NCBI RefSeq assembly: GCF_026151205.1
Contig: NC_087073.1
Location: 20,178,837 to 20,242,836 of the forward strand
Source: Bolinopsis microptera
Lineage: Eukaryota; Ctenophora; Tentaculata; Lobata; Bolinopsidae
Direction: 5' to 3'
Length of the DNA: 64,000 bases
A program made the position numbers and the translations under genes. Positions 9,904 to 44,423 of this stretch are shown here, piece by piece. The first letter of the stretch is position 1. Every line of letters starts with the position of its first letter. The notes beneath the pieces are model-generated. The model had not been told where the DNA came from. It saw only the letters and a list, made by a program, of their open reading frames with translations, and searched no databases.

Positions 9904-9940
9904 AATACTTTCAACACTACTATATAACAAATAATTTGAG
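9904..9940 (+). other. Candidate spliced-leader sequence, copy 1
   Basis: These 37 bases start AATACTTTCAAC and end AATAATTTGAG. They are identical to 44375-44411, while the flanks on both sides of the two copies differ. Each copy lies just upstream of the first ORF of a different retroelement, both PHD-containing. This is what a spliced leader captured by reverse transcription of a trans-spliced RNA would look like. A shared 5' UTR or unrelated repeat is the alternative. Confidence 0.45.
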
Positions 9941-10030
9941 GACCCCTAAACTGCCACTAACTCAAATTTTGTCACTACCTCCCATGACTACAGTTTAAGA
10001 CCTGCTCCCCTTTCAGCAGGATTTTTTGAG

Positions 10031-13000
10031 ATGCCCCCAAAGATAAATAAGGAAAATAAAGTGGCCGGGCCGGAATCGTCAAATTATATACAATTACAGG
10101 CAAATGTAAAGATAATCACAAGAATGATGAACCTATGTCCAATGATCCTATGTCGCCCAATATGGCCTCCCCAAATCCTAATAATCAGAAAGTATTAAAC
10201 TCAACCGATCCTATCAAACCTCAATCCTCTTCTTCGAGATATGACTTTCGGCGCCACATCAGAATATAGAAACCTTTGTTAAATAAACCTCAAGTCCTAG
10301 AAGTAAACTCCAATCATAAAACAATAGTTGATAAGAGAAAAAAATGTAGACCGAATGAGAAGGATAAAATAGATGACGTATGTCCTATATGTAAAACCAG
10401 AGTTGAATGGCATGTATATTGTATATGTAGATGCTTTGCAGTGTGAGGAGTGCGAGGTTTGGATTCATAAGGCCTGCTTGTGTATGAGTGATGAAGAGTA
10501 TGATGATCATAAAACCAGTGAAGATGATGAATGGTATTGGGACTGCTGCCAGTTGAATAGATCAAATAATGTGACATGGGGTACCATGGTTGGGGAAGGG
10601 TGTATACGGTCAGAACTTACGGGGATATATGATGAAATTATTACATGGTGTAGGAATTTGTTTATGGTGCTAATGGGTAAGAGTGGGGAGAAGTTTATCA
10701 AAGAGTTGACACGACTTTTGTACCTTTTTGTGAATAAAACGGCCTGGGAGTCTTTCACTGCAGCTAGTCCATATATTTATCCCTAATATGTTACAGAAGG
10801 CTTCATGTAAGTCCAAAGCTAGAGGCAATGCGAAGTACTTGGTAGATAGACTAGAAAAGTGGAAGGATGGTGACCTCAATTCCCTCATGGATGAAGCTCA
10901 TGTCATCCAGGAGAAGCTAAAACGAAGGAAAAAGTATGAAGATTCATCTCAAATGAAGGGCTTTAGCAGGTTAATGATGGTGGGTAAAATAGGTCAGGCC
11001 ATGAAGCTCATCAACAATGAAGACTCAGTTGTTGGGTTACACACATTGAATAGAAAGATCAAGAGTCTATTACAGGAGAAACATCCTAAAGCTGAGACAC
11101 CTCCAGCTGATATCCTTCTACCTATAACAGCGCTGCAGGCACAGTCGGTGATATTTGCTGAAATATCTGCAGAGCTAGTTGAGAAAGCGGCACTTCATGT
11201 TAAGGGTTCAGGTGGCCCAACCCATTTGGATGCAGTGGCGTAACGAAAGGCCCTGCTGACCCCGCTGTGCAGGGGGGCGCCGTCTTAGGGGGGCGCCAAA
11301 TCGTCGTTTGAATGTGGGACAATTTCGAAAACTTAACTAAAGTACTAGCAAAATTGCGCGTTTTGCTCTAGATACACACTTTTTTAGAGATTTTACCGGC
11401 GTATTCTTTAAAATCCCCTAATTTGCTCAATTTTAGGGAGGGGCACCAAAAGGGGAGGGGGCGCCAACAGGGGGCGCTTTTTCGGCAGGGGGGCGCCAAC
11501 AGGCAACGTTACGCCACTGTTTGGATGCAGATGGGTGGAAAGACATCTTGTGCTCCAAAGCATATGGGAAATTTCCTTTTCATTTTCAACTCTGCAGTGC
11601 AATAGCAAAATTTGCAAAGTGTTTGTGTGTAGAGGATGTAACCCAGAGAGTCTGAATGAGTTTGTGGCCTGTAGACTGGTACCTTTGAATAAGGGGGACG
11701 ATAAGAGAGGTAATCCTGTCCTGGTGTACGGCTGGTGGGGGTAGGAGAGGTTCTTTGGCATATTGTTGGCAAGGTGGTTATTGGGTAATTAAGGATGATA
11801 TACAAGAGGCTGCAGGACCTCTTCAGTAATGTGCTGGGCTAGAGTCAGGCATTGAGGCATCCATCAGAGCAGTTAAGAGGACATGGGAAGATCCTAAGAC
11901 AGAGGCAGTGCTTCTTGTTGATGCAGATAATGCGTCTAACAGGCTTAATCGCAAAGCAGCTATTCACAACATCAGGCAGCTATGTCCCCCGTTTCACCAA
12001 TACCTGAAAAACACCTATCAGAAATCAGTTAAGCTCATTGTCAACAACATATATTCGTGTCAGATCATTTACTCTGATGAAGGAGCAACGCAAGGTGATG
12101 TGGCAGCAATGGCGGAGTATGCTATCGGTATTCGTCTTCTTATCAACATCCTGGCCAGCGTGACAAAATTAGGAGAATTGATGCAAGCGTGGTATGCGGA
12201 TGACTCAGCAGCGGCCTAGCAGGTACTCTGAAGAAACTCCGGCTGTGGTGGGATTTACTCAGTGTGAACGGTCCTAAGTTAGACTACTTCCCTAAAGCAG
12301 TGAAGACTATTCTTATCCTAAAAGAAAAATCAAGATAAAATTAAGATAAAGGGCAGAGTAGACAGCCTCAAGTTAGTTAAAGAATTACGCTTGAAGAAGG
12401 AGCTTGCTGAGATAATGAGTGAAGTGGATGAGAATACCAGGGAGTCACTGCAGCTGGTACAAGAGCATGGGTCAGGAGCTTGGCTTACATGTCTCCCCAG
12501 TCAACAGCTAGGGTATACTTACAGCAAGCAAGACTTCAGAGATGCTGTTCATCTCCGGTATGGTTGGGACATCCCTAACACCCCAATATTTTGCGATTGT
12601 GGAGCCAAAAATGATCATAATCACATCCTCAACTGTAAGAGAGGGGGTATGTGAACTACCGTCATAACAACGTGAGAGACTCAAATGCTGAATACCTTAG
12701 GCTGGTGACCAAGGATGTGAGGATTGAGCCCCTGTTGACACCTATAGAATCAGCCAACTTCCAACAAAAGGGCAACAATGCTGATAAGGCTAGGCTTGAT
12801 ATATCAGCAAGAGGAATGTGGAGCATATTTGAGAGGACTTTCTTGGACGTGCCCATTTTCAATCCTAAATCGTCTACATATCAAGGAAAGACCATGCCAC
12901 AGCTCTACACTCTGCATGAGAATGAGAAAAAGAACCAGTACATAAACCTAGTGCTACAATTGGAGAAAGGGTCATTCGTCCCCCTTGTATTTACCATGGC

Positions 13001-13133
13001 ACCTGAGGCCAAGCGTTTCATTAGGAGACTTGCTGTGTTGATATATATTTACTGGGCCGCGCTCAGCCTGTCATTCCGCCAAATCTTGTTAATGAACAAA
13101 ATAGCCTGGGGTCCTCAGGTAGATATGTATTGA
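10031..13133 (+). pseudogene. Decayed PHD-finger reverse-transcriptase retroelement
   Basis: A chain of frame-broken pieces reads as one retroelement protein. It starts near an ATG at 10031. A PHD-type zinc finger follows at about 10375-10560 (CPIC, CEECEVWIHKAC, WYWDCC). Next is a conserved RT N-terminal region at 10788-11243 (LVDRLEKWKDGDL, KGFSRLMMVGKIGQA). The RT core is at 11520-12217, with LLVDADNASNRLN (motif A), EGATQGDVAAMAEYA (motif B) and WYADDSAAA (catalytic YADD). The tail, 12391-13133, has C.CG...H..NC and ARLDISARGMW...LDVPIFNP, resembling a nuclease-like domain. At least six stops or frameshifts and a MITE at 11233 show it is dead. The family occurs in cnidarians and sponges. 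Confidence 0.75.
11233..11519. mobile_element. hAT-type MITE with 8-bp target duplication
   Basis: The terminal inverted repeat CAGTGGCGTAACG is at 11233-11245, with its exact complement at 11507-11519. It is flanked by the 8-bp duplication TTTGGATG (11225-11232 and 11520-11527). CAGNG-type ends and an 8-bp duplication define hAT elements. At 287 bp with no ORF it is non-autonomous. Its interior is rich in GGGGGCGCC. Removing it with one duplication rejoins the RT reading frame (THLDA/DGWKDI), so it inserted into an RT that was colinear there. Confidence 0.9.
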
Positions 13134-13361
13134 ATGTATGACGAGGAAGTGAATTTTTGTCTTTGATAAATTTGGTACCAAAACAAAAAATTTGCCTTCA
13201 CGTTTGAATAATAAAATTTTATCGTAAAACATGATCATTGGTTCAAAATGTATGTTGGCTTCTTTTACATTCACAATTGAGCATTGTACTTAGTGTGAAA
13301 TGGACAAACAATTGCAAATTTCTTGGTTAATATTAATATTACCTAGGGACCCCAGGCTATT
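13100..13361. mobile_element. 262-bp MITE-like inverted-repeat element
   Basis: The left end AATAGCCTGGGGTCC (13100-13121) is matched in inverse orientation at 13340-13361 with two mismatches over 22 bases. A related sequence occurs at about 24528-24608 on the minus strand, where the shared block also includes the GCTCAGCCTGTCATT stretch found at 13066-13085. The element overlaps the end of the RT pseudogene. No clear target duplication was found. Confidence 0.6.
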
Positions 13362-14198
13362 ATATTTAGAGAAACAAATTTTTAGATAAACAAATTTGAA
13401 TTTTGATCTTTATTACAGATTAAACATATCATATATAACCATAAAAGCCGCGCGTCGGCTGATTGCCTCAACTTGGATTGGTAGTAATTTCAGATTACAG
13501 AAGCTGAAGGACGGCAGCTCAAAAGCCCCAGTGAACCATCGGAAAGATCAAGGACTCGAGTGCCAATAGTGGCTTTTTCGAACCCATTTTCGCCGATTTG
13601 CTGTGGCCCAGATGAGCCGCGCCCTGCTGCTTAACGGCACATGATGGTTTTTGTTTCAATACTTATTTAAATTTAAGCGATAATTCATTTGGTGGTTTAC
13701 AGTTTTTGAATCATGTTCATCATTTATTTTTCGTTCAGTTATCACGTGTTTACAATTCAGTCATACCATGCATGCATAGTCAACATTGTTGAGGCAACCA
13801 GCTTCTGCAGTTCAATAATTGGAGACCGAGAATATAAATTGATCGAAATTTACAATTCATCGTTATCAAATATAGTCAATAATATTCTTGATTCCATTTA
13901 GTACATACTAAGTTGGTTTTATTCTCTTGCAACACTACTGCACAACAAAAACTGCGCCTGTCCACCAGCAACAGCGCAGTCATAGGTGTGCAGCCAAAGC
14001 TAGGCCACACACCCATGGCCGCGCCGGTTAAACAACTTTATATTCAATCGTTATATTAGGAAATTTTAGTTAATTCTTTGATCACTCTTCAGTGCCGGTG
14101 GGCAGGCGCCCCGCATAGTTGGCTTTCCAAATTTACAGTCTCAAGAAAGCCGAAACGGTAATCGAGTCCCGGAGCAGAACACACATTTAGAAAATTGA

Positions 14199-14336
14199 AA
14201 AATTAAAATTAAAATTAAAATTAAAATTAAAATTAAAATTAAAATTAAAATTAAAATTAAAATTAAAATTAAAATTAAAATTAAAATTAAAATTAAAATT
14301 AAAATTAAAATTAAAATTAAAATTAAAATTAAAATA
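14199..14336. repeat. Microsatellite (AAAATT)n
   Basis: About 23 uninterrupted copies of the hexamer AAAATT. It directly precedes copy A of a dispersed repeat family. Confidence 0.95.
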
Positions 14337-14343
14337 ACAAATT

Positions 14344-14830
14344 AGAAATTAAAAATTAACAAGAATTTCGCCGCGGTTACACCACGCACGATTAATTTTC
14401 CCTGCTTAAACCGTTAATATTTGCAACGAAAAGTTAATTTTATCGATTAATAAAAATTAGATATTGGATTATTTTGTTGTTAAAAACTTGCGATATTTTC
14501 ATCGTCATTTTTTTTTCATTGCGCGCGTGCAGGATTGCACGTAATCGAATATTTAGTACGCCGCGCACAAGTTTTGGGCTAATTTATTTTGAACGGCATC
14601 GTTTGACAATTGAAATTCGCGTTGGATACTGCAATTAACTAACACATGCCGAGCGTCGCGCGCAGCATAACAGACGCTTCCTATACTCATAATTATAGGG
14701 GAGTGGTCTATATTGCGAAGGAGCAGACTTTTGTCGACATCGTAGGACCGTCGGGCCACCTCATATATCCAAACCCGATTACTTATTCCCTACGATCTTT
14801 TTGCCTTCGGCAAGAGCAGGGAAAAAAATT
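14344..14830. repeat. Dispersed repeat family, copy A
   Basis: This shares long stretches with 37975-38430: AACAAGAATTT..GCCGCGGTTA at one end, then AGCGTCGCGCGCAGCATAAC, AATTATAGGGGAGTGG and TCCAAACCCGATTAC. Both copies close with a hairpin (TTGCCTTCGGCAA) and an A-rich run. The middle of copy B is shorter or diverged. The GGGGAGTGG stretch vaguely resembles a pol III A box, but no full tRNA fold is visible. Confidence 0.8.
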
Positions 14831-15484
14831 ACATGACTACGAGAGTCCAGACAGGCGACAAACACACAAACCGGACGCACAGTGGCTGAAAAAGCGCAAA
14901 TTGCAAACTAAGTATTTTCGCGCGTTTTCGCGCGTTTTGACAAGATATATATTATGAGCACTCTTTAAATGCTTTTCATAAATTCCAGAACAATCCTTTT
15001 AGTATGATTTTTAATACAACATACAATTTATGGTCTAAATATCATTATCTAGCAATTTTGAAATTTCTAGCTTAACTGTAAATAGAGTTAAGTGCATTTT
15101 AAAACAAGTAAAAGTCTTCCATTTTGTTTTGATCATAACATTTTAACTAAGTAAAAGTATTTGGGCATATTTACACGAAATGATCAGAAATTGTCTAAAT
15201 AACAATACAGTCAAAGTTTTAATGATCGGCAGTAAAATATTCGTAACCAAAACGTTAATCAAAGTTATACGAATTATACTTATTTGTTTACAATATTGAC
15301 TTTAAATTGAACAAAATGCGCGGAACGCGCGCGATCTTATATCATATATGCGTAGGTGAAGAAAGAGACTAGCCATCTTTACAACAAAGGAAAGGATTTA
15401 ATAACCTCTACTAGCCTTAGAGCATAACCATGCTCTTTCCACAATGCACAAGTATGAGCAAATAACTCCTTTCGCAGGAAACTA

Positions 15485-15780
15485 ACGCCCTCACAGGCTC
15501 CCACGTTTCATGTAACCGACCCCAGGTTTTGGTTTTAGATCGGACACTCAAAACAAAGATAGAAGAGCGGTCTACACGCTTACAGGCTACCACGTCTCTT
15601 GGAAACCCAGGATTTAGTTTTGGATCGGACAATCAAAATACCGATATAGATAAACATAAAACAATAGAGGAGCGGTCTACACCCTCACAGGCTACCACTG
15701 ACCACGTTTAGTATAAGCCAGGATTTAGTTCTGGATCGGAAACTGGAAGCAAGGATATAGGAGCGGTCTACAGTGACGTT
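15485..15780. repeat. Tandem repeat, about three imperfect units
   Basis: Units of roughly 90-120 bp repeat the elements GAGCGGTCTACAC, CTCACAGGCTACCACG, CCAGGATTTAG and TGGATCGGA. Spacing varies because of internal indels. Confidence 0.75.
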
Positions 15781-16137
15781 ACAGGTTTAAAGGTATAGTA
15801 GTTGAAATCACTTTTACTTTTAGCAATATTAATGGACTGCAGTTCAAAAATATGGAAATATTCAGGAGCAGGACATGGACACTGTGTGGTTTGAGATATA
15901 AACCCATAGGTGAGGGCCAGAGACAAGTTTCCGCTTAGACATGACAGTACCTAGACAACTGTGTATCAACTGTTTGAAGATCCCGTTAACCAGATTTATA
16001 AGTAACACCTACCAGGAACACTACATACGACTACGAGTTGCACGTAGCAGGCCATGACCTTCCCTGAGAGTTCCTGTCTCTCCGTCTTTAACCCGACGGA
16101 ATTGCACCAGGGGTGGTGGTAACAGAGCTTCAAGACT

Positions 16138-16191
16138 CTCGGAGTCTGTAGCTGATATCTATGTTTTAAGATATCAGCTACATACTCCGAG
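16138..16191. repeat. 54-base hairpin (23-bp arms)
   Basis: Left arm 16138-16160 (CTCGGAGTCTGTAGCTGATA..) pairs with right arm 16169-16191 with one or two mismatches and an 8-base loop. The size and near-perfect pairing would suit a small foldback element or a microRNA-like precursor. Nothing in the sequence decides between them. Confidence 0.5.
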
Positions 16192-16468
16192 AAAGAAGAC
16201 TCCTAACTAAAGCATGCAATGAAATATCAGATTCTTAGAATATCATATCAAGTGGTCGAGACAGTTTTAAAAATCTTAAAATTTGAGTGTTGAGTGATTT
16301 AGTACGCACAGTCGCACATTTTTACTTTCAGTCTTCTTCATATCGCTGACCTCGTTAATTTCTTCTCTTTAGTACGTCCCTATAAAATAATACAATTATA
16401 ATCTTTAACTTCATTTCCAGGGTTAAACTACCACTGGTAAGCAATTCGGAAAATCATGGGACGGCATA

Positions 16469-16537
16469 ATGCCGGGGCGGGTATGAACCGCCAACCTCCG
16501 GGTTACATGCCTAGTGCTTTAATTGAGCTACCGGCCC
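16469..16537 (-). pseudogene. tRNA-Thr(TGT)-like sequence, probably SINE head
   Basis: On the minus strand the segment starts GGGCCGGTAGCTCAATTAAAG. It has an anticodon-arm-like CTAGG/CATGTAA/CCCGG (TGT in the anticodon position), then a perfect T arm GGCGG-TTCATAC-CCGCC and a 3' side CCGGCAT that pairs partly with the 5' end. The D loop lacks the usual GG and the acceptor stem has mismatches, so it is unlikely to be a working tRNA. A tRNA-derived SINE is the better explanation. Confidence 0.5.
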
Positions 16538-16691
16538 TATTCAGCTCAGGAATTTCTTGCAAGCGAATCAGTAAGCAATCTTGTTGTTATTTCATATCTG
16601 CTGCTATTAGTACACGTACTGCATTATATGCAGCAGGGATAGCCACTGCCACTAATGATCATGGCTCTAGCTAAATGTTTTACTCCATCGG

Positions 16692-19480
16692 GGCAGCCGA
16701 GGCACGTGCAATGTTTGTTTAAAGCTCTCGAGCTAAATTGATAAATAGATTAGACAACCTCGGAAGAGACGCCGGCAGTGTTAGATCAAAGAACCTTAAA
16801 ATCAGGTTATTCATGAATTTTCGGGAGGTCTTTTAGAAGAATGTCAAAATTCAAGTGTAGAGTGATTTAATCACCACGCTCAGCTATCTAACGTACGGAA
16901 CGTTCACTAAAAATAGTTTGTGAACGCGTTCGCTAAAAAACGTTCGGAACATAAGGAAAGTTAATTGCTATTATGAAATTAAAATGCAGGACATAGCCCA
17001 ATTATCCGGCAAAGTACTAGCGTTTCCATTGCCAGGCCTTCAGGGCCTTGAGGTATGTTACAAATACAAATGTTGTTTGATCTTGAGCTGAATGGTTGTT
17101 ATACTATAATATCGTATATATAAGAACGATGTACATTTTACACATCGATCCCTAATGAAGTTTTGTGGAAGATCAAATTCCAGAGAAAGAAACGTATCCT
17201 TGAGCAACTTTAAGTTTAACAATTTTACCTTTGACTTCTTAAGTTTCAGCCTTCAGGGTAATCATACCCCAAATCTTTTGGGAAGTACCATGAACAGACC
17301 GTTAAATCGACCGCAAGATACGAGAACAGTATATTTGCTGTGGTAACCATAGTTGGTCAGTTTGGTCATTGTTTATTTACTGTCTAATTCCAACAACATG
17401 GTTTTATCTCATTGTATCCATCTTAAGTTAAAAACTATCGGAAAATTATCAAAATATTGACTAACGTATACTAACGTTCACAAACGTTCACTACAAAATG
17501 ATTGGAACGTACGTTCAGTACGACTAAGTTCAGCGTTCACTACAACTAAGGTTAAAAGTGCGTTTAAGTACATTTACCGTTGAATTCACCGTTTTACGAG
17601 AGTAATACGTTTTATCAAGAGTAATACAGAGAAAGAGTCCCGACAGTCTCCCTGATTGCCTCTAAATATATTCACGTGACACATATGCCGGTCTTAAACT
17701 AACATCATCCAATTAATGGAGTATAACTAAGCCTGTCAGTCTGTAGAGTAAACAAAAGGGGTGACAAAGAAGCCTAATTAAGGAAAGTGAGGTGGAAACA
17801 GCTTGCTAACCGTGTGTAATGAGGTTAATAACAAAAGGCCAATAACCACATAGGAAGATGAACTAGTAGTCTAAAATGATGTGTACACTGGTGACAGGAG
17901 CGTACAATTACACATGTCTGATATCACAAAAATATCTGAAACCAAGCTTCCTGAATTTCTGCTCAATTGGCCGATACGAATGGCCCAAATATGGGAGGAG
18001 ATCTAGAGGGTGCAAGAAACAACTGGAAAAAATGATGAACCTTTTTTAGGAAACACGGATATAGTTCTAGAAGGGCCGATCGAACTAGACCAACTTGAAT
18101 TGACGCATTTTTGAACACTGATTCATATCTTGAAGTAATTGTAAAACAGATACGGTAATAATTAACATGTCAGGTCATATTATTCTGAAATAATTGTAAA
18201 ATGCCTACCTGCCTAGGTCGATGAAGTCTGGAACGAGTTTCCAGTTTCGTGACAGCGCTTCTCTCCATTTATCTCTATCACTCATGAGCCAACGAACCTT
18301 ATCAGATTGCAATCCAGTATCTTCTGATCTTGTAGGATGTCCGGAAAGGTCTTATGAGGTCGTCCTATATACCGATGGCCATATGATGGTTGTTAGAAAA
18401 GGAGTTGCTGAGCAGATTGGTACTGACGGTAGAAATGTCCTGTAAAATAGATACAGTAATATAAAATATCGGGTCATATCCTAAAATAGAGTAACTGTAA
18501 AATAGATACGTGTACGGTAATACTAATAACGTTGAGCCATAATATTTTGAACGATGAATTTATCTAAACAAAAGCATTCTTAATAGAAACTTGAACATTT
18601 TTACTCACAAACGATCCATTGGTTAATCATGCTCCTGTCTCGAAAAGAGTATTTAGCTCAATATGAGGGCGTGTATCTTTATTAGAATTCACAGAATCCA
18701 TTTTCTAAAACCGGAGAAGTATAGTATAATAAAGCAATTTAAAATTTGCACGATCAACAAAACATGACAATAATATGCTCATGTCATCAACTTCATGAAC
18801 AATAAAAAGCATATAACAAATATGTCAATACACAATGAATAACAAATTTTTAAAAAAGCTGTGAACAGAAGGTAAAAAACTGCGAACAAAAGGTAGCGTA
18901 CGATCGCGTTTTGAAACAGTGCACAAAGAAATGATCCTAGATTGAGCTCTAGAAATCTAATTTTTGAGTGGAGTACTTGTGGAAGAGGTAATGCAAATTA
19001 ATGCTGCCTGGTATGTGGAAGAGGCTGACTGAAAAGCTTGCAGAGTATATTGGCTCTAGCTTGTAGCTGTTTCATCAAAAATTGTGTTGACTGTGCGCGG
19101 CTCGACCGCGCATTTTTACAATATTTGTGCAAATGGCAAAATCATGCGTTGTTAACGATAAATCGACGTAAGGTCTACTTAGTTCGACTGACGGCGGGGC
19201 GCCAAATTTGTGCGCTAGTTGCAGCGCAGCCACTGTGGGACGAAGAGAGGGCCCACTGCTGAATTCGACATATAATGAATTGTTTAAAACATAATGATTC
19301 CTACACTAATATGATCTTGAGGCATGCCCTGCATGTACTGTGCGAGTACATTGTAAATAATATCTGATAAGATGGGCCAAAAATAGCGGCACAGCGCGCA
19401 AAATGCGCGGCGTGACCGCCGAAATTTTATATTTTAGACATTAACATTTCAATCGGCTTTAGCGCTCAGCATATCTTAAT
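16692..19480. other. Gene-poor stretch
   Basis: No coding region, RNA gene or clear transposon end is recognisable. Short near-repeats of the type ACGTTCACTAC / ACGTTCGGAAC occur at 16890-16950 and 17460-17550, and TAAAATAGATACGGTAAT-like words recur near 18140, 18440 and 18500. Confidence 0.5.
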
Positions 19481-19931
19481 TTAGTAGACATTAGAATTTC
19501 AGTTCGTTGGAATCGAAGTTCAGTTCACACCAATCTATTTCGTCGTACCTGGACTGCATGCCGAGTAACTCCTTTTTTATTGTGGATTTTACAAGGTTCG
19601 TTGATATATGTAGAGAAGTTGATATTGCTAGCAGTGTTTCTACAATCGTTCCACATTTTTGTCGATTGATATATGAAGGAGGTGGATGGGGTTGGAGTGA
19701 TGAATCGATCAGCACGTCTTGATGATCTGTGAAATAGATTTAGGAGTGGGACTGGGGATTCTAATTTATTGATTTTGAACATTTCCAATAAACATGTGTG
19801 TTTGAACAAACTGTGTATGGTTAGTAAACCATTTTTCTTAAATAGCGGTTTTGTGTGCTGTTTTTCATAGAAGTCGCTTCCTAATTTTTGCTTGTCTTTA
19901 CTTCGTGTTCTAGCACAAGTTCTAAACTTTT

Positions 19932-21416
19932 CTAAGTTACCAAATCTCGGTTACCAAATAGTATTCTAACACATTTCCTCTGAGTGATAAATATTGGTTC
20001 AAGCCTGTTGTTACTAAGGCCACCCCATACTGATATCCCAAATCGCAAGTGTGATTCAAATAGTGTGTAGTACAGTTCTTTGTAGAGTTTTTCTGGAATA
20101 ATGTGCCGTATTCTACAAATTTTCCCACTTTCACATTTCAGCTTTGTGTTGAGCGACCGTATATGAGCATCCCATTTAAGCTGATCATCAATAATAACAC
20201 CAAGAAACTTCACCTTTTTGACTTGCTTTATTACTACATTGTTTAGAGTAAGTACGTGTTCTTCTTCATTATGTTCTACCTTGCTTTTTCTATTCGTTGG
20301 TTTAAAGTGAATGTAACAGCATTTCTTAATGTTAATATGCAGGAGATTACATTTCATATACTGATACAGTTGTACCAGTTTGAGAATTTGGTTTGCTCGT
20401 TCATATAACTTTATCTTACATTCATCCGCGACAAATATATTTGTATCGTCAGCAAATAGAATGAACTTGCCTAGTTCAGTTGCCCTATATAGGTCGTTGA
20501 TATAAATAATAAATAGTAACGGACCAAGACAAGATCCCTGGGGTACTCCAAAGAGAACTGGAAGCTTGTCAGACTCTTCTCCTAGGACCGAGACGTATTG
20601 ATATCTATTAGAGAGATAACTAGCAATGAGTTTGTTGGCATTGCCTCGAATTCTGTAATTATCTAGCTTACTCAGTAATTTGTCAGCTGAGATGGTATCG
20701 AATGTTTTGCTTAGATCAATGAATATTCCGAGCACGTGCTGCTTTTTATTAAGGCATGATTCTATATAATTCACTGAGAAATTCAGGGCATGACTTGTAG
20801 AGTGATTTTTACGGAATCCATACTGATTTTCATAGATCATATTTTGTGACTGGAAAAAGCTGTATAGCCTACTATATATAATTTTCTCGAATAACTTACC
20901 AAATACGGCTAAGGTAGAGACTGGTCTATAGTTTTCAAGTAATTCTTCATTTTCTTTCTTGTATATGGGACTGATCCTGCCAATCTTTAAATCGTCCGGG
21001 AATATTCCCTCCTTCAAACATTCATTGTATAGTACAGATAATAGGGGGGCGATAATTCTGGATGACGCTTTTACAACATGTATTGGGATATCAGACGATT
21101 TGCCATTTTTCAATTCTGATATTATTTTACATACTTCATCGATTGTACAATCATGCATGTAAATACTGGTCGTGTTGGATTTTGGTAGGTAGTCATAGAT
21201 ACTGGGGATGCCATTAATTACTAGTTCGCCGATTTCATTGTATGCCTCGTTAAGATTAGAAGCTAGGGAGACAAAGTACTTATTAAACTCATTAGCTATT
21301 ACCCTACGATTAGTAATTTTTTCATTATTGATAGTAAATAGAGGTTTGGTTTGTCGTTTTCGTTTACCCCGTATTTGGTTAATTAATTCCCACGTCTTTT
21401 TACTGTTTCCGTGCAA
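19932..21416 (-). CDS. Reverse transcriptase of LINE 1
   Basis: A 494-codon open frame. Visible RT features: NYRPVSTLAVFGKLFEKI, the motif A region VLGIFIDLSKTFDTISADKL, VPQGSCLGPLLFIIYIND (motif B region) and FADDTNIFV (catalytic FADD). Further on come a thumb-like KVKFLGVIIDDQLKW and ESHLRFGISVWG. The family copies element RNA by target-primed reverse transcription. Motif A has T in place of the usual A after K (SKTFD instead of SKAFD), a minor change. Upstream and downstream portions lie in other frames, so this is part of a defective element. Confidence 0.9.
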   Translation of the reverse strand: MHGNSKKTWELINQIRGKRKRQTKPLFTINNEKITNRRVIANEFNKYFVSLASNLNEAYNEIGELVINGIPSIYDYLPKSNTTSIYMHDCTIDEVCKIISELKNGKSSDIPIHVVKASSRIIAPLLSVLYNECLKEGIFPDDLKIGRISPIYKKENEELLENYRPVSTLAVFGKLFEKIIYSRLYSFFQSQNMIYENQYGFRKNHSTSHALNFSVNYIESCLNKKQHVLGIFIDLSKTFDTISADKLLSKLDNYRIRGNANKLIASYLSNRYQYVSVLGEESDKLPVLFGVPQGSCLGPLLFIIYINDLYRATELGKFILFADDTNIFVADECKIKLYERANQILKLVQLYQYMKCNLLHINIKKCCYIHFKPTNRKSKVEHNEEEHVLTLNNVVIKQVKKVKFLGVIIDDQLKWDAHIRSLNTKLKCESGKICRIRHIIPEKLYKELYYTLFESHLRFGISVWGGLSNNRLEPIFITQRKCVRILFGNRDLVT

Positions 21417-21623
21417 CTCTGCAAATTTTCCACCATAGAACTTAGATTGAGCATTGCGGCGATCTTTTTTGACCTTCCGCCTGCAGTCACTGTATTTTTT
21501 ATACTTGTCACGTTTTGAGCAACATATTGGGCATTGGCATGTCCCCCCTTTATTTTCAATTTCCCCAAATTTACATTTAACTTTTCTGACCTTTACCCAT
21601 TTATCGTAAAGTTCGTGCTGATA

Positions 21624-22876
21624 TTAAATTTTGCCCACAAGGTCTGGTGTAATCCATGGGTTGTTCAGTGCTGTTCTTTTAGAGCATTTAGGGGTTTCTA
21701 ACTTACAAGTTCTATCTATACAGTCCTTAAATATGTCGTGAAATGTTGTAAAATTGTCGATAACATTATTATTGAGATCATGTTCCAGAGTCTGTAAAAA
21801 AGCTTTTACATTCGGTTTGTTGTAATCATAATACTGTTTGTATTTCAGGTCAATTCTGCTAGAGTCCAAGTTTCTATTAAAGATTTGGAAGATGGGTGAG
21901 TGGTGTGATATACGGTCAGTCAGTATTCCAGAAGCTACTATACTCTCTACGTCGTTATTTATTATGTTATCAATACAGGATGCTTTGCAGCCTGGTTTCT
22001 CATGTGTTGCTAACGAAATTAGGGGGAAAAATCCTTTACTTAATAGTATTTCTTCATAGCGTTGTACGATTGTGCTATTCTTATCGTGTAAATCAATGTT
22101 AAAATCACCCGCTAGGTAACTACACTTGGGGAGGCTGTCAAGGATGTCAGAGAGTTCAGATAGTGCAACATTGACATTACCACTTGGAGGACGGTACATT
22201 ACACCAACTGTTACTGGGGAAGTTGTACTACTTACGGCCACAAAAAGAGTTTCTAAATGTTCAGTGATATGGGATACATTGCCGTTTACTCTGGCACTAA
22301 GAGTGTCACAAACATAGAGAGCTACTCCAGTGCCCTTTTTTTTATCTGGTATTGTGTTTTGGTAGAAACTGTTGTATCCAGTTAATTGATACAAACTGCT
22401 GGATTCAGGACCTTCATTTGTTTCCGCTAAGGCTATGATCGAGAATTTCTTGGTGAGCCTATGGGATTCAATAGCGAAAGTGTCGAAATTTGACTTATTG
22501 CCGTCGATGTTTTGGAAGAGAAGCGATGAAAATTCATTCATTTGATTATCTAGTGCTTTGTTGAATTCCTTGACATTGTACGATACGCAGTTATTTAGTA
22601 TTTGATCTACTTTTATGATAGTGTCATCCACTTCACTACTTTCAATATCACTTAAATTAGTGCATGCAAGTCGAAATGGATTGTAACGAATAACTGCTAA
22701 ATGTACGCACTTGGGACAGTAAAAATCGTCAAATAATGTGTCATTGTTAATGGATTTGGTATAGCACTTATGGTGCATTGGGCAGTCGCATTCACAGCAT
22801 TCAACAATGAATTGTCCTACGTTAATGAACTTCGCACAGACTAGGCATACCTCTTTACTCAGGGGAGTCAGAATGG
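21624..22876 (-). CDS. PHD finger plus APE endonuclease of LINE 1
   Basis: The longest methionine-started frame begins at 22778, but the same frame is open upstream and encodes the first cysteines of a PHD-like finger, so the true protein starts further 5'. Endonuclease landmarks: LLFQNIDGN, IALAETNEG (catalytic Glu), GVMYRPPSG, YLAGDFNIDL and ISHHSPIFQIF (the final His-containing motif). The protein would nick target DNA for insertion. The frame ends at 21624 before the RT, so a frameshift or stop separates domains that should be fused. Confidence 0.85.
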
Positions 22877-23103
22877 CTGGTAACCATCCTGGTGTCGATA
22901 TAAATCATTTGACCATTGTCATATAAATCATTTGACCATTGTTAATGATCTGGCCCGGCGCGCGCTACTTTGTAGCTCGGGCCATTAAATAACATTTCGA
23001 GAAGAAAGCGGCGCGCGCTACTTCGAAGAAATTTAGACGAGTAACATCCGTCAAATAAATCATATGAATAGAGTTTCGACGGAATGATGCAGACTGAGCA
23101 CCG

Positions 23104-23225
23104 CCTTAACGGGTGATACTCGTAAAATATTTGTTTCAAATATTTAGGATCACTGTCGACGAGTCCAAGATCTGAACTCGGCGCGCGCGTCTTGGTAGGT
23201 TATAAACCTACAAGTGGTTGCGAAA
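23104..23225 (+). repeat. Dispersed repeat with ACTCGTAAAATAT core
   Basis: It contains TTAACGGGTGATACTCGTAA, TTTGTTTCAAATATTTAGGA and CTGTCGACGAGTCCAA followed by GGCGCGCG and TAGGTTATAAACCTAC. The same order occurs at 51601-51660 (plus) and 52187-52335 (minus). Confidence 0.7.
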
Positions 23226-27327: not shown

Positions 27328-37488
<10,161 letters not shown>

Positions 37489-37974
37489 CTTCTATCTTCT
37501 ATCTTCAGTCTCCCTAAACAGTACACATCCTGCCCGAGAATTTGTGGTTAGAAAAATGTTCTGAAATGAAAATATAGATGAGAAAAAGCTTGGTTGAGAA
37601 GGATGGATCTGCACTACAGGAGTAATTGTATGTGATCCGATCTGAATTTACTGATACAATTTTAAGAACGAGTGATATTCACATGTTCTAATAATATGAT
37701 GTACCATATAATGCAAAGGCAGCAAGAATTTAGATTCATTTCTTAAAGTTTGTTATCATTAAATTCTTACGTACTTACAAGCGATTAACAAAAATATTAA
37801 ATCCATACAATTGAGGCCTTATCCAGTATCCATCCATTTTAGACCAATCTCCGACCCAAAAAACCAAAACCCCGATTTACTGCAGGTTTTTGCTTTCCTC
37901 CTATACTAAGTCCGCAGTAAATTGTAGTTCTACTGTATTTAGCATTTTTAATTAGATAGGTCAGATATTCTAAT
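37489..37974. other. Upstream flank of S6K
   Basis: On the minus strand the S6K start codon is preceded by GAAGATAGAAGATAGAAG and, about 25 bases up, by a possible acceptor CTGTTTAG. No TATA box can be assigned. 37862-37943 carries a short inverted word pair (CCCCGATTTACTGC / GCAGTAAATTG) that may be a pogo-like transposon end. Confidence 0.4.
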
Positions 37975-38430
37975 TTAACAAGAATTTTGCCGCGGTTAAA
38001 CCACGCAAGATCAATTTTCCCTACGATGTACTTGTATACCTTTAATTCTTTTGAGTGAAAGGTGTGACTGGAAAAAAGTGCAACATATTTACATACTATG
38101 TTATTTATAAATGAGTGGGATTCGTGCATGGTAAAAATTGACGATTTATTTGACGAACGTAGCGCCGTGCATCAACAATAAATGGATCCAGAAAATTGCG
38201 GAAAATAACTTTGCGAAGGAGGAATTTCACTGTAATTAATTAACACATGGCTAGCGTCGCGCGCAGCATAACATACGCCTTCTATACACATAATTATAGG
38301 GGAGTGGTCTATATTGCGAAGGAGCAGACTTTTGTCATCACCGCAGGTCCATCGGGCCACCTCATATATCCAAACCCGATTACCTATTCCCTACGATCTT
38401 TTTGCCTTCGGCAAGAGTAGGGACAAAAAT
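37975..38430. repeat. Dispersed repeat family, copy B
   Basis: Partner of 14344-14830 in the same orientation, with the same GCCGCGGTTA start, AGCGTCGCGCGCAGCATAAC block, AGGAGCAGACTTTTGTC, CCGGGC-type linker and terminal TTGCCTTCGGCAA hairpin. Confidence 0.8.
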
Positions 38431-38523
38431 TCAAATTAATTATACATTTCTTCTACTCTTGTAGATATGTTCCGTTTCTACTTCTTGTTGGTCCCTAAGG
38501 TTAGCTGACTCCAGACCAGACGA

Positions 38524-41500
38524 TTTTTTTTATTGAAATCTTTCAAATCAGTCAATTACATACAAGTTTACACAATGAATTAGTTAAATATAATATTGTC
38601 CTCTAAGCATGGATTGTCAAAGTTGAAATTGTCTCGGACAAAATGTATGTAACCAAAGGACCTGAGGGTCACCAAAACACAGATATTGAGTGCAAATGCA
38701 GCTCCTGCACAAGCATGGGCCCTTATAAAATTGTAATAAGTTACTTTAAACAAAATCACACACCCATTCAATCAATTCATAAAATATTGTGCTGTGAGAT
38801 GAAATTGAGAAATATGTGAATGCAGACAGCAAGAATAGATAATCTTGAATAAACTATTTTACGGATTTGTTTCTATTGAATAGTCAAGTTCAGAGTCCGA
38901 ATCCACCGGGATAATTTTCCCCCACATGTAAGTGGAAAGTTTACTTTTAAAATCAGTGATACTCTCTATCTCACGGATATCTAGAGGAATGTGATTCCAC
39001 TTAGTGTGGGTCCTATAGAAGAAATTCTTGGCAAAAGCGTTGGAGCTTGCTCGAGGTGAGATAGAGCTTACAAAACATAGAGAGTCCATGTGACTATTTC
39101 TGAGCCTTGAGTGGCCTTGAAATGGTTGCAAATATGAGGGTAAAGTGACAGGTATATGTTGCTTCACAATTTTAAAGAAGAAGATGAGATCCAAGAAGTC
39201 AAAGCGGTCTTCAATCGGCATAATCTTCAGCTGTCTGCATTTTTGAATGTATGTGGATGGTGGATAACTCATATACTCCTCGTGAAGAATCCACTTAATA
39301 GCACGCTTTTGGAGGCCCTCCAGCTTGCTTATCTGGGATTTTGTGACTGGTCTCCATATAACCGAGCAATGCTCAAATAGGCTCCTCACTAAAGTGAGAT
39401 ACAGTACTCTACGACGATTTACGTCTTGGACAAAATAACAATTTCTTCTCGCCATGCCTAATTTTTGGTTTGCCTTAGAAAGGACTTTGGAGCACTGATC
39501 TTTCCAATCGAGATTTGATGTCACAATTACACCCAGATCCTTTTCATGATCAACATAGTCAAGTGTGATTCTTCCCATGGAGTATACAAAGTTAAAGAGT
39601 GGTAGGACACTAAGGAGGGAAACTGTTTCGGATATCCTTCCTGCGACGGTGAGGACCTTACATTTGTCGGGATGAAATCTCATTTTATTAGAAAGTGACC
39701 AGTCATGGAGATAATCAATGTCCTTCTGCAGTCGCAGGATATCAGACTCCGAAACAATCTTACGCCAAATTTTAGTATCATCGGCATACAGTGACAGTTG
39801 TGTGCCTGGTGAAATCCCCACTGATATATCATCAATGAACATAATGAACAGCAATGGTCCCAAAATTGACCCTTGAGGTACACCAGACTGGGCGTTTCTC
39901 ATAGAAGAAAACTTGCCACTCATCAAGACCTGTTGTTGCCTGTCTCTTAGATAATCAGTGATGAATTTCAGTAGCCTCCCATCAATACCAAATTTGCTCT
40001 TTAGCTTAAATAATATAAGATCATGGTTAACCGAGTCAAATGCTTTGGCAAAATCAAAGTAGACTACATCTGTTCTCATATTTTCATTCAGTGAGAGCGC
40101 TAGGCTGTCGCACAGTCCTACAAGATTAGTTGCACAAGATCTCTCAGCTCGGAAACCATGCTGTTTGTCATTGATCATGCCATTAGTAAGTGCCAATAAC
40201 TCATCTCTTATTATGCGTTCAAGAACTTTTGTGATTAAGCATGTAAGAGAAATTGGCCTATAATTTGAAACCTCATGTTTATCCCCTTTCTTGAATATTG
40301 GTACAATGTGCCCCAGTTTCCACTCCCTTGGTAGTGTCCCAATGTTGTAGCATGAATGAAAAAGTATTGATATAGGGTATGCGAGCCCAACCGCACAGTT
40401 TTTCAAAAGTTTCCCATGGATACCATCAGGTCCATAAGCTTTATTAGCATTAATATTGGAAAGGATTTTGCGAACCCTTCTGTGGTCAAATTCAATATCA
40501 AAGCGCCAATCATTAGAGTAATCTATATCTATGTCATAAGTTGATGCCTCAGAGAACTGCTCGAAGAAAAAGTCATTAAATAGGTTGGCCTGGTCTTCAG
40601 GGCAGTTGCGGACAGTGCCTTTGTGGCTTACAAACTCAGGGATCCGCTGACTAGCTGTCTTCGATTTGACATAGGACCAAAATTTTTTTGTTATTAAAGC
40701 ACTATCATCAGATTCATTTAATGTTTCCCTCATTTTTTGAGCAACCACATTTTTGAAATTTTTCCTAGCAAGGGAGAATGCAATTTCAGCTCTATCACTT
40801 TTATGCCTTTCTTTATGTAATCTCACTTTCTTACGCCATGCATCATAACACTCCGAGTCAAACCATGGATCTTGGCCATCAGTCTTGACAGAGCATTTTT
40901 TAACAAATTTATCTGTGACATTAAAAAGTTTGTCCTTAAATTTTTTCCATCCAATTTCAGGTTCTGTGCCATTGAGCAATGCATCCCAATTCGTGTGTCG
41001 GAGTTCATGGTTTAGCCTCTCCCAGTTCACAGTCTTAAAGTTATAGCACATACGCCTGACTGGCTTCTTCCTACCAACTTTAACGTTGATCTTAAAATTG
41101 ATGGGGAAGTGGTCAGACTTGCAAGCACTATCTCTCTCACCTACCATTAGGTCATTAATATTTGACACAGAGTTTGTGAGCAATAGGTCAAGTGTTTTGC
41201 CTTTGCAGTGGGTAGGTGTTAACACACATTGTTGAAGGCCTAGATCAACAAAAGATTCAACAAAAGATTGCTCAATAGGACAGGAGCTGGCCAGGGTAGA
41301 CCAGGAAACTCCGGTCAGGTTAAAATCTCCTAGTATGAAGACTTTACTCAGTCCTCTTCTTCTGAGAAGAGTTTTCAAAGACTCAACAATTTTTTCATGA
41401 TTTGCGGAGCCCAGTGTACCAACACGATAACATGTGCATACAACAAACTTAATTCCAGTGGATGTCTTAAATTCCACAGCAAGAATTTCTGCACCATACT

Positions 41501-41640
41501 TGAGATGAACTTCCTTTGAAGTTACTGAATGGCAAGGTTTGATGCCTAGGCAGTTGAGACCTCTAATCGAGACCCTACATAATAAATCCATACAGTTACA
41601 TAATTGAAACAATTAAGGCCCCTTGGTGTGGGCAAAATAT
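38524..41640 (-). mobile_element. Non-LTR retrotransposon, 5'-truncated (LINE 2)
   Basis: One long ORF (APE plus RT) followed by about 330 bp of 3' sequence ending in TTTCAATAAAAAAAATCG on the minus strand, a plausible poly-A tail at 38524-38531. The 5' limit falls within the endonuclease domain near 41612-41640, the usual 5' truncation of a LINE insertion. It lies about 1 kb upstream of S6K. Confidence 0.85.
38859..41612 (-). CDS. APE endonuclease-reverse transcriptase of LINE 2
   Basis: An uninterrupted 917-codon frame preceded directly by a stop. The initiating codon at 41612 is TTG, with the first in-frame ATG at 41588-41586. The beginning of the APE domain (first catalytic Asn and Glu motifs) is missing. 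Present: VCTCYRVGTLG, VFILGDFNLTGVSW and KSDHFPINF (final SDH motif). The RT follows with NYRPISLTCLITKVLERI, VVYFDFAKAFDSVNH (motif A), VPQGSILGPLLFIMFIDDI (motif B region) and SLYADDTKIW (catalytic YADD), then the thumb KDLGVIVTSNLDWK. The tail TKWNHIPLDIREIES is the typical LINE C-terminus. No internal stop in 917 codons suggests a fairly recent insertion. Confidence 0.93.
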   Translation of the reverse strand: MFQLCNCMDLLCRVSIRGLNCLGIKPCHSVTSKEVHLKYGAEILAVEFKTSTGIKFVVCTCYRVGTLGSANHEKIVESLKTLLRRRGLSKVFILGDFNLTGVSWSTLASSCPIEQSFVESFVDLGLQQCVLTPTHCKGKTLDLLLTNSVSNINDLMVGERDSACKSDHFPINFKINVKVGRKKPVRRMCYNFKTVNWERLNHELRHTNWDALLNGTEPEIGWKKFKDKLFNVTDKFVKKCSVKTDGQDPWFDSECYDAWRKKVRLHKERHKSDRAEIAFSLARKNFKNVVAQKMRETLNESDDSALITKKFWSYVKSKTASQRIPEFVSHKGTVRNCPEDQANLFNDFFFEQFSEASTYDIDIDYSNDWRFDIEFDHRRVRKILSNINANKAYGPDGIHGKLLKNCAVGLAYPISILFHSCYNIGTLPREWKLGHIVPIFKKGDKHEVSNYRPISLTCLITKVLERIIRDELLALTNGMINDKQHGFRAERSCATNLVGLCDSLALSLNENMRTDVVYFDFAKAFDSVNHDLILFKLKSKFGIDGRLLKFITDYLRDRQQQVLMSGKFSSMRNAQSGVPQGSILGPLLFIMFIDDISVGISPGTQLSLYADDTKIWRKIVSESDILRLQKDIDYLHDWSLSNKMRFHPDKCKVLTVAGRISETVSLLSVLPLFNFVYSMGRITLDYVDHEKDLGVIVTSNLDWKDQCSKVLSKANQKLGMARRNCYFVQDVNRRRVLYLTLVRSLFEHCSVIWRPVTKSQISKLEGLQKRAIKWILHEEYMSYPPSTYIQKCRQLKIMPIEDRFDFLDLIFFFKIVKQHIPVTLPSYLQPFQGHSRLRNSHMDSLCFVSSISPRASSNAFAKNFFYRTHTKWNHIPLDIREIESITDFKSKLSTYMWGKIIPVDSDSELDYSIETNP

Positions 41641-42359
41641 GTGTCCTGGCAATCACAATGGAGATGCTTCTCGTTGTAGAGTCCTGGTATACAATTTATC
41701 TGAGGAACTGGGACTGCATTATAATAATTTAAGGAAATCACTAACAACAGTCTTTAAACGATAATAGAGACAATAGAAATAAATACGTGGGCAAAAATAT
41801 CAAATGGAACAAAATGCAGCCACCTAAACAGATCTTGAGCCCACAAGCAATCTTGACTTAAATTGTTTTATCTTCAGCGAGAGCTAAGACCTATATGAAT
41901 ACCGTGCTGTACATTTGCATGGCCATGGCATGTGGAATAATTGGATTGAGATTACTTGACTGGAAGGTGAGTGACGAAATTTTTAACTTAACTAAATACT
42001 GTGAGAACTACTTTTTAGTCTTAATGTCCAAGAGTTTCCCTTGCAACTGAATAACTGATTTCTGAGCCACCCCTGCAGATTTCGTCGATTTCAGGTGCCG
42101 TCGGCACCATAAAAATTAAAAGCAAACATAAATTTTTTCCCCTAAAATCGAAAGCTTTCTGCGCAAAAAATTGACCTCAACAGAAAAAATTAAACATGGC
42201 TTCAAATCCAAATTTGAACCAGAGATATTTCACTTCCTCTCGATAAACTCAATTTTCAACCCAAAATAAAGTCTCAAAGGGGTAAATTACTCAGGTCAGG
42301 ATTGTAGGCAATGACTATGCCAAACCATACATTTTTGTAAATTCATTAAACTTTCAATT
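41641..42359. other. Intergenic, no gene seen
   Basis: AT-rich sequence with no recognisable coding region or transposon end. Confidence 0.5.
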
Positions 42360-42555
42360 TAGCCTAAAACACCCTATTTCGCAAAATTTTTCCGGGGGGC
42401 TGCGCCCCCCTAGCCCCCGCCAATGGGGTCCACCCCTTACCTGGACCCCGCTGGGGGCCGCACCCCCAGACCCCTGCCACAGCTTGCAGCTTCGCTAGCC
42501 GACAGCCCCCCCCCCCCCCCCCCCAAAGAAAAATCCTGGCTACGTGCCTGAGCAA
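42360..42555. repeat. GC-rich poly-C repeat, second copy
   Basis: Shares with 34957-35182 the words AACACCCT(A/G)TTTCGCAAAA, CCGGGGGGCTGCGCCCCCC, CTGGACCCCGCT, CCCAGACCCCTGCCACAGC, a poly-C run and AAAGAAAAA..CTGGCTACGTGCCTG. The reverse-strand edge CAGGCACGTAGCCAGG resembles a hAT-like end. No partner end is seen. Confidence 0.75.
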
Positions 42556-42839
42556 AATATAGGTTTAGGGCTTTTCAGATGATTTGGCTCCTCAACAGAT
42601 ACCGACGTACATAACGGTCAATATGTAGTTTAGGTTTACCTGGCCTGTAGGTTACGAATGTGCACGAGGAGGAAAAAAAAGCAAACTTAAGAAAATTTCT
42701 CGGGAACTTAAAAGTTCACCTCAAAACGAAATCTGCACCTATGTTCTGAGCATTAATCATGTCACTTTTTATTTCCTCCAGTTTTGTTGTCGCTTTTAGA
42801 AAGACTTCCTTATATCCAACAATACCCTGAAACGCGTCA

Positions 42840-43780
42840 AAAAGGTGCTTTATGGACTTCACTTGGAATAAACATCTCCTACTGAACCCTAGAATAAATC
42901 CGGGTGAGATACTGGATAACATCGATGAGAGGAGCAAAAAGTTGTTTCCTCGCTACTCAAGCAGGAGCACAGACACTAAAGTAATGTCTCTCTTGCATGG
43001 CCATGACATCACCTTCACAGCGTTCAAGGCAAGGGTTGCCAACAACTGCGACCCTCAGTGTCCGAATTGTCAGATGTTGGACAACAATTACCATCGAATC
43101 TTCTCTTGTCCACTGTACCGCTGTTCCTACAGAGAAACCATTCAAGAGCACTCCACTAGTGACCAACCATGCTGGTCTATCTTAAGAGATGGTAGTGATG
43201 GCAGCATCACTGCCTTCCGATCTTTAGCACAGATCGCCATCGATGAACTATCATAGAATTGATACTTATACTTATTAGTGCTCCTTCACCTCCATCCCCC
43301 TTTATGTCCTACATCTCCTTATGACATCACTCCCCCTTCAGCCTCTACTACTCCTTTACTACTCCATCTACTGCCTCATCTTCTGGACATCATTATCTTC
43401 TAGTTAAGTTGAGAATTCTCAACACCCACTTCCAAGTCGAGTACTCTCGACCCACTTAGTCCACATACCTTGCAAACTTACAGCAGGGTATTTGTAATGG
43501 TCTAAGTCCCTAATACACGCCAAAGATGGTTCCTCTATACTCAACCGTAGGAGAAGAGAATTAGGTGACTGTATTTTGTTCTAATGTTGATATTAATATA
43601 AGTATGTTCTAGTTGTTACTCCTTTTGTTTTAACGTTTTTATGGTACTCTCCTTAAATTATTTCAATGCAGTCACTCAGATGATTTTTAAATCAGGACAC
43701 TTAAATAAAGACACATACTCTGCCCACAATAAGGGGCCATAATTTTTAAATTATGTAACAGTATAGAATTATTATTATTA
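42840..43780 (+). pseudogene. LINE RT C-terminal fragment with (ATT)n tail
   Basis: A 134-codon open frame (42852-43256) encodes the zinc-knuckle tail of a LINE reverse transcriptase: LLHGHDITFTAFKARV, then CPNCQMLDNNYHRIFSCPLYR (C-x2-C...H...C). About 500 bp of 3' UTR follow, ending with ATTATTATTATTA (about 43769-43780), a tail style of CR1/L2-like elements. The RT core is absent, so this is a 5'-truncated copy. Confidence 0.65.
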
Positions 43781-43781
43781 C

Positions 43782-43904
43782 TAAAACATCCTTGAACTTG
43801 TCTAATGTAATATGACTATCTTCATCACAGTCTATTGTCTTCATCACTTCCTCAACCCAACAACCAAGATCATAAGCAGCATCAGCAAACATGTCCAAAT
43901 CAAG
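43782..43904 (-). pseudogene. Possible orphan exon with EF-hand-like loop
   Basis: Minus-strand open frame of 41 codons, MFADAAYDLGCWVEEVMK then TIDCDEDSHITLDKFKDVL, ending at a GTAATA that could be a donor. DCDEDSHITLDKF has the D-x-D-x-D spacing of an EF-hand loop but K at position 12 instead of E. It is directly abutted by the LINE tail at 43780. I cannot find neighbouring exons. It may be a gene fragment or chance. Confidence 0.25.
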
Positions 43905-44374
43905 AAAACAACAAATTTTCAAGAAAACAACAAATTTTTATTTAAATCAATTATAGCAACAATTTGAAAAAAAATATTTACATGACCACATTGTAGAGTC
44001 AAAGTCTACATTTTCCATAATGTACTCAGAATTGTATAGCACCAGACAAAAACTAGCAGCTAAGTCGTCGTTAAATCGTAGCGATAAGAGATGAGCTCAA
44101 TAATCAACGCGTTACAAAACTACATCAAACTTAGGAGCGAGATAGAAGGTACATGAGTACTTAGAGAAAGAGAGAGAGTGATGAATGTGGAGAAGGCAAC
44201 CTTCACCCGGCAGTATTTCTCATATCTGGAGGTATGTCGAAAGAGTGTAAGCAATTTTTCAACAGACTAGCGGACCTCATAGCCAGAAAGAGGAAGGAGA
44301 GGTATTGTGATGTGGTAAGGCATGTAAGAACGAGGATATAATTTGCAATGCTTAGAACAACACTTATTGCTTTT
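43905..44374. other. Short intergenic stretch
   Basis: AT-rich, with a duplicated AAGAAAACAACAAATTTT (43901-43938). No gene seen. Confidence 0.5.
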
Positions 44375-44411
44375 AATACTTTCAACACTACTATATAACA
44401 AATAATTTGAG
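44375..44411 (+). other. Candidate spliced-leader sequence, copy 2
   Basis: Identical over 37 bases to 9904-9940. It ends TTTGAG 13 bases before the first ATG of LINE 3 ORF1 and marks the probable 5' end of the element. See copy 1 for the reasoning. Confidence 0.45.
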
Positions 44412-44423
44412 TTTCAGGAAGCA

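Follow-up and report, generated by a model that had tools for sequence, protein, structure and literature searches.

Ctenophores are already known to have spliced leaders and to carry copies of them in their genomes. In Hormiphora californensis a leader is present on 56% of the Iso-Seq reads, and the section of the report that deals with it puts the number of leader copies at 718 in the Hormiphora genome and that of copies of the leader motif at 491 in Mnemiopsis leidyi (PMC8527503). Among other animals, about 30% of the transposable element (TE) Iso-Seq reads of Hydra have a trans-spliced leader, as stated in one passage of a study of that animal (PMC12220107). Here we analyzed a window, i.e., a whole stretch of 64,000 nt from the ctenophore Bolinopsis microptera (contig NC_087073.1, positions 20,178,837 to 20,242,836 of the forward strand), in which two retroelements, a decayed one (element 1) and a long interspersed nuclear element (LINE), begin with the same 37-mer. 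The initial annotation of the window had proposed that this 37-mer is a spliced leader (SL), copied into DNA from trans-spliced retroelement RNA. The genomic comparison reported here makes it very probable that the RNA of such retroelements is trans-spliced before reverse transcription, and probable that the leader acts both as a product of this reaction and as the acceptor of the next one, so that it would be replaced about once per cycle.

Results

The 37-mer is part of a predicted spliced-leader exon

The two 37-mers (9904-9940 and 44375-44411, both on the + strand) are exact copies, as annotated, and no match to them at ≤3 mismatches was found in 100 dinucleotide-preserving shuffles of the window. 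Each precedes a different retroelement, in one case a decayed element with PHD-like and reverse transcriptase (RT)-like pieces and in the other a LINE with open reading frame (ORF) 1, endonuclease and RT parts. The flanks had been described as diverging at once on both sides. This holds on the right, where GACCCC and TTTCAGG follow, but not quite on the left, since the TTTT at 44371-44374 is part of the leader and the first copy has TTTC at the corresponding place. The 5′ end of the LINE is therefore given as a 41-nt DNA copy of leader A, counted from this TTTT (44371..44411, + strand), and that of element 1 as a 37-nt copy (9904..9940, + strand) in which the initial 6 nt of the complete leader are either absent or altered.

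In the whole assembly (264.65 Mb, 232 contigs) the 37-mer gave 1,620 matches at ≤3 mismatches, 766 forward and 854 reverse, a full total that includes the SL-A gene array, and the reversed 37-mer, used as a control pattern in the same search, gave none. The sequence behind the leader varies between genomic copies. When 110 distinct dispersed leader copies were clustered by the first 30 bases behind the leader, 50 groups were obtained, a few of which are one family joined at different places; the sample is biased, with 30 loci picked by a following GT and the others by family.

The proposal that some copies would stand before a GT donor in a tandem array was borne out on contig C3 (array A), where the matches listed have leader plus GT at 36 exact places between 13,511,056 and 13,533,417, mostly spaced by 591 bp, and at one further place at 13,551,282. 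The 28 units read (27 in loci L064 and L065, the latter including 659 N, and one in L066) have the order CTGCAGTTTT, 37-mer, GTAAGATTAAGTTCCAATG, hairpin, CTTTTGG and second hairpin. Two further leaders, SL-B (AGTTTTAAACTAATTACAACACTACAAATCTATTACATTTATTGAG) and SL-C (AGTTTTAAACTATTTTCACAACTACAATTAAATACATTTATTGAG), were discovered through LINE copies of the window's family, and each has an array of its own. The SL-B array (C1:14,490,810-14,549,178) has 74 exact units of 434 bp among the matches listed, and the SL-C array (C5:1,039,668-1,050,567) has 22 units among the matches listed at ≤1 mismatch, of which two were read, 428 bp apart. A 30-mer of SL-B gave 1,009 genomic matches and one of SL-C gave 198, at ≤2 mismatches and with the arrays included; the reversed 30-mers gave no match in the genome at the same threshold. 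A GT 5′ splice site stands directly behind the exon (GTAAGATTAAG) in every unit read, i.e., in 28 A units, six B units (four in L089 and two in L090) and two C units, and the B and C arrays have the same GTAAG donor as array A. The Sm site that had also been predicted has a candidate in the CTTTTGG between the two hairpins of A, B and C, which we take to be Sm-like and which was kept unpaired by constraint in the folds; the first hairpins of the three arrays differ in sequence yet still pair. These features identify the three arrays as predicted SL RNA genes encoding leaders A, B and C. Linkage to 5S rRNA genes, which is frequent for SL RNA genes and not obligatory, was not seen here: L064, which covers 10 kb of array A, had no Rfam match and hence no 5S rRNA.

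The donor, the array and the Sm-like site thus agree with the annotation of the 37-mer as a spliced leader, but its limits have to be changed, and the 37-mer is better described as most of a predicted exon of about 43 nt, SL-A. The complete exon probably starts with AGTTTT, because CAGTTTT is present at this place in all three arrays and AGTTTT is the start of 7 of the 16 leadered LINE copies; the other 9 start 1-7 nt shorter, so that these copies reach to 0-7 nt short of the leader 5′ end. In L031 and L032 tandem repeats of about 100-200 bp surround the leader, and no donor follows it. As candidate SL genes, the tandem leaders of L031-L033 were ruled out, because they lack the GTAAG donor.

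Three different leaders stand on one LINE body

The LINE family of the window was collected by body sequence and not by leader. The first 489 bases of the LINE behind the leader gave 22 genomic matches, of which 17 have a readable 5′ end, two (L085 and L087) are second pieces of such copies and three (L082, L086 and L088) are partial. A leader is present on 16 of the 17 readable copies: SL-A on five (L067, which is the window copy, L069, L080, L081 and L084), SL-B on eight (L068, L070, L072, L073, L075, L076, L078 and L079) and SL-C on three (L071, L074 and L083, with small changes in two of them). Nearly identical bodies can carry different leaders. L070 (SL-B) and L081 (SL-A) have 1 difference in 1,874 sites, and L068 (SL-B) and L071 (SL-C), whose junctions also differ, have 2 differences in 1,881 sites; L073 and L078, both with SL-B, have 5 differences in 1,880 sites. 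In a maximum likelihood tree of the bodies, from which the leader was excluded, the three leader states of the 16 rows need 8 changes. With the leaderless row included 9 changes are needed, against a mean of 8.0 after shuffling, and all 200 shuffles were as low. Leader type is not clustered on this tree, in which the row of L084 covers 28% of the alignment columns and the branches of L072 and L076 are long.

The junction lies before TTTCAGG in 14 of the 16 leadered copies, behind TTTCAG in one (L071) and behind GGAAG in one (L079). The corresponding window sequence just behind the leader, TTTCAGGAAG (44412..44421, + strand), contains both of these additional AGs, each marking the junction of a single other copy of the family. 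With three different leaders on one LINE body, and 14 of 16 copies joined at the same place, the alternative named in the initial annotation, that the 37-mer belongs to a longer shared 5′ untranslated region (UTR), does not hold. No outron form was found among the 17 readable LINE starts, and because of this the leadered copies are the likely parents. The lone leaderless start, L077 (C11:8219623), is truncated, has an AG in front and is inserted in another repeat. It is the sister of L079 (support 100/99), in which SL-B is joined at the same AG. The part upstream of L077 was considered as a fourth leader and ruled out, since it belongs to the other repeat, seven further copies of which continue with T where the LINE begins.

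Leaders on other repeat families

In a second family, collected with the 200 bases that follow the leader of L027 (14 genomic matches, 13 of them reaching the body start), a leader stands at one common junction in 13/13 body starts, with 7 SL-A and 6 SL-B; eight of these were read (L027, L038, L114 and L121-L125) and five were placed by coordinate match to the leader lists. From the other side, 20 dispersed SL-B copies were fetched of the 27 listed on C1 outside the array, and three of them share body and junction with SL-A copies. A further SL-B copy, L110, is joined to the body of an SL-A copy 12 nt deeper, behind AAAG.

The first 400 bases of element 1 gave 25 genomic matches, of which 10 reach the body start, the window copy included. 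The other nine (within L092-L100) all carry SL-A, as seven exact 37-mers, one with one change (L097) and one that is decayed (L099). The leader of the window copy and the seven exact ones are identical to the SL-A genes, and the bodies are 76-85% identical to that of the window. Renewal of the leader fits this family better than inheritance does, because the bodies have diverged this far and the 37-mers are exact.

The window also holds one copy of a SINE-like (short interspersed nuclear element-like) repeat on the minus strand, whose body runs from 49,408 (49324..49408) and in some other genomic copies has SL-A directly in front, a leadered form seen in L033. In the window copy the body is preceded by an upstream part ending in TTTTATCTCAG (49409..49473, minus strand; 65 bases compared), the presumed outron and 3′ splice site, in place of which SL-A stands in the leadered copies. 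The search for this short repeat gave 294 first-look candidates, of which 40 were scored; 41 of the 43 matches listed reach the body start, and the upstream 65 bases were fetched for 20 of these 41. A long form, in which the upstream part terminates in TTTTATCTCAG or a similar sequence, was found in 17 of the 20 (16 end in AG and 1 in AA), and in the other three (L127, with a small change, L135 and L139) SL-A is joined at exactly the same point. The two kinds of copy are best described as the predicted outron form and trans-spliced form of one repeat, the window copy being an outron form. Besides that of L077, a further leaderless start with an AG in front is found in L030 (at 364); the other rows obtained when body starts were compared among the loci read are hits by chance on the leader itself or leadered copies in a shifted register.

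Taken together, leaders A, B and C stand at the 5′ ends of dispersed copies of predicted retroelements and end exactly at the predicted exon end. Where the acceptor side is visible, the leader joins the base behind an AG of a putative 3′ splice site, and in L071, L079 and L110 this is an AG of the body.

Structure of the two window elements

The element behind the second leader is assigned, by its endonuclease and RT domains, to the LINEs, i.e., non-long terminal repeat retrotransposons, with a predicted APE-type endonuclease. ORF1 (44424..45980, + strand) has a PHD-like finger (E=0.0041, under the cut-off) and, by eye, zinc-knuckle-like cysteines. The endonuclease part (46010..47431, + strand; PF03372, E=1.5e-15) and the RT part (47666..49042, + strand; PF00078, E=2.6e-34) of ORF2 are not in one open frame. 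The probable 3′ end is a tail of ATT repeats at 49203..49224 (+ strand), judged by eye. The body of element 1 (9941..13133, + strand) consists of PHD-like and RT-like ORF pieces, and the end given is that of the last ORF piece rather than a mapped end of the element. Its PHD match (E=0.0029) is under the Pfam cut-off, its RT-like pieces and YADD box were seen by eye, and no RT profile match was found in its ORF pieces. A run of AAAATT units was seen by eye at about 14200-14335 of the window.

ORFs behind leaders, and leaders placed head to head

Ten ORFs behind leaders were scanned, of which six had a PHD match (one above the cut-off) and two were without any domain. A 2OG-Fe(II) oxygenase domain, above the cut-off, is present in ORFs directly behind the leader in L030 and L046, and a GDSL lipase domain, also above the cut-off, in the ORF directly behind the leader in L049. 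In L003 (minus strand) SL-A is followed, after 19 nt, by a 103-aa ORF whose start resembles a signal peptide and which contains a repeated acidic region; this locus is perhaps a retrocopy of a host mRNA. A Rfam scan of 20 leadered loci, with ribozymes among the targets, gave nothing at gathering scores.

Some leaders are placed head to head. Among the matches listed, SL-A pairs of this kind are found on C1 at 3731160/3731199, 7307505/7307554, 15606568/15606624, 16284611/16284659, 18035177/18035228 and 23931773/23931818, and SL-C pairs at C3:9105132, C7:15867979, C8:5250547 and C12:7747693; the leaders are 2-35 bp apart, minus then plus in each pair. Further pairs are found in L012, L025 and L056. 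In the last two both arms share one body, and in L012 both arms begin with CCTGAAG and one arm is interrupted by a further leader, the second leader being 14 nt behind the first. Upstream of 67 SL-A copies, inverted pieces of the leader were seen in 7 and direct ones in 1. Such pairs would perhaps arise by self-priming, with the cDNA end folded back to start second-strand synthesis. A Penelope-like identity was considered for the head-to-head families and not retained, as L006 and L025 lack an ORF of 100 aa; no search aimed at that family was made.

Discussion

We propose that RNA of a retroelement, started upstream or in the flank, would be trans-spliced by the host SL RNA, so that the part 5′ of an AG is discarded and a leader is gained. 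The RT would then copy this RNA to within 0-7 nt of its 5′ end and insert the copy. The new copy would consist of leader plus body, and the end of the leader (TTTGAG or TATTGAG) would provide the first AG usable as an acceptor; in the next round, any SL RNA available could thus be joined to the transcript at the same position. We infer that the leader's own end may work as an acceptor because outron forms are absent among the 17 LINE starts and the leaders are unclustered on the tree. The flanks differ between leadered insertions.

The leader could instead be a shared 5′ UTR or promoter module that is inherited in DNA and owes nothing to splicing. An AT-rich leader could in principle hold promoter signals, and a module would account for SL-A in 10/10 element-1 copies. 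However, A, B or C may be found on LINE bodies that hardly differ, with no grouping by leader in the tree; the leader also precedes a GTAAG donor in separate arrays, and in the short repeat it takes the place of the upstream part at an AG. For two LINE families an inherited module is already contradicted, and it is most improbable. Different leaders on one body would also be obtained if the RT ran off the LINE RNA and jumped to SL RNA, appending the leader during reverse transcription. LINE-1/U6 chimeras are a parallel to such template switching, and the head-to-head leader pairs show that odd end reactions do occur. Nevertheless, a jump would be expected often to include SL RNA from behind the exon and to ignore splice sites, and SL RNA past the exon end was found in 0/38 junctions read or placed (16 of the LINE, 13 of the L027 family and 9 of element 1, L099 being decayed there). 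In addition, the two shifted LINE junctions and that of L110 lie behind body AGs, and an AG stands exactly at the junction in 16/17 long forms of the short repeat, which leaves template switching with hardly any credit. Finally, leaderless masters with an outron and an acceptor could make all copies by trans-splicing, in which case leadered copies would never remobilize and the leader end would never be an acceptor. Leaders unclustered on the tree are predicted by such masters too, and the short repeat has many outron-bearing copies. Against them stand the 0/17 LINE starts in outron form, with the sole leaderless copy, L077, truncated and within another repeat, and the nested supported clades of the LINE family, for which one master is hardly enough. 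We consider this explanation unlikely, although it deserves to be taken seriously.

Several observations weigh against repeated trans-splicing with the leader as acceptor. A leaderless master of the LINE could lie outside the assembly. Good support in the body tree is limited to a few branches (3 of the 14 inner ones are starred), and the original acceptor at the main LINE junction is unseen, as every leader ends in AG. The AG at this junction is the leader's own, and therefore it is the two shifted joins that support acceptors in the LINE body. Unlike both LINE families, element 1 is without switching, with SL-A in all 10 copies including that of the window, which also fits a single leader choice or a single burst. 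As 17 of the 20 fetched copies of the short repeat are long forms, this repeat spreads mainly without a leader. The check for target-site duplications gave matches of at least 9 bases in 11/59 items, some loci being counted twice, against 7.3% in shuffled pairs; CR1-like LINEs are often without such duplications.

If the leader is indeed renewed by trans-splicing, a further step is somewhat favored: these LINEs would need no promoter of their own, since read-through RNA would be trimmed and capped at the leader's AG, and the leader would be rewritten in each cycle from three SL RNA pools. The identity of the leader would then mark single generations of LINE copies. A new answer would thereby be offered to the question of how a LINE inserted into random DNA can retain a complete 5′ end. 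Trans-splicing of an animal LINE RNA before reverse transcription would be readable from DNA alone, and, as with SL-B and SL-C, spliced leaders not known beforehand could be read from the 5′ ends of young retroelements.

Copying by retroelements would also account in a simple way for the leader copies that number in the hundreds in ctenophore genomes and had not been attributed to retroelements. The Hormiphora leader aligns with SL-A and they have the common end AATTTGAG; the section of the report on this leader suggests that reads were assigned to the nearest leader locus as a mapping artefact, and it makes no mention of retroelements, several leaders or switching (PMC8527503). The evidence in Hydra is at the RNA level, and the passage that presents it is silent on leaders copied into DNA or exchanged between copies (PMC12220107). 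There is also a likeness with dinoflagellates, in which, as proposed here, trans-spliced RNA is reverse-transcribed and inserted with its leader, leaving DinoSL relics. There, as the relevant part of the report describes, host retrogenes keep partial relics behind a new leader, sometimes several in tandem, whereas here the retroelements themselves carry the leader (PMC12014239). Unlike these relics, no leader remnant at the body start was recognized among the 50 groups studied here, with L012 having a second leader. In the open-licence literature, judged mostly from titles and abstracts, we found no report of leader-bearing or leader-switching LINE DNA in an animal. Encounters of a LINE with a host small RNA, or a defined 5′ end gained from a read-through RNA, are also seen in the release of R2-type elements by a ribozyme, the LINE-1/U6 chimeras, and the insertion of SLACS and CZAR into SL genes. 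In contrast to these, the 5′ end of the Bolinopsis elements would be made by the host spliceosome and SL RNA, and the leader stands at the front of the element and not at its target.

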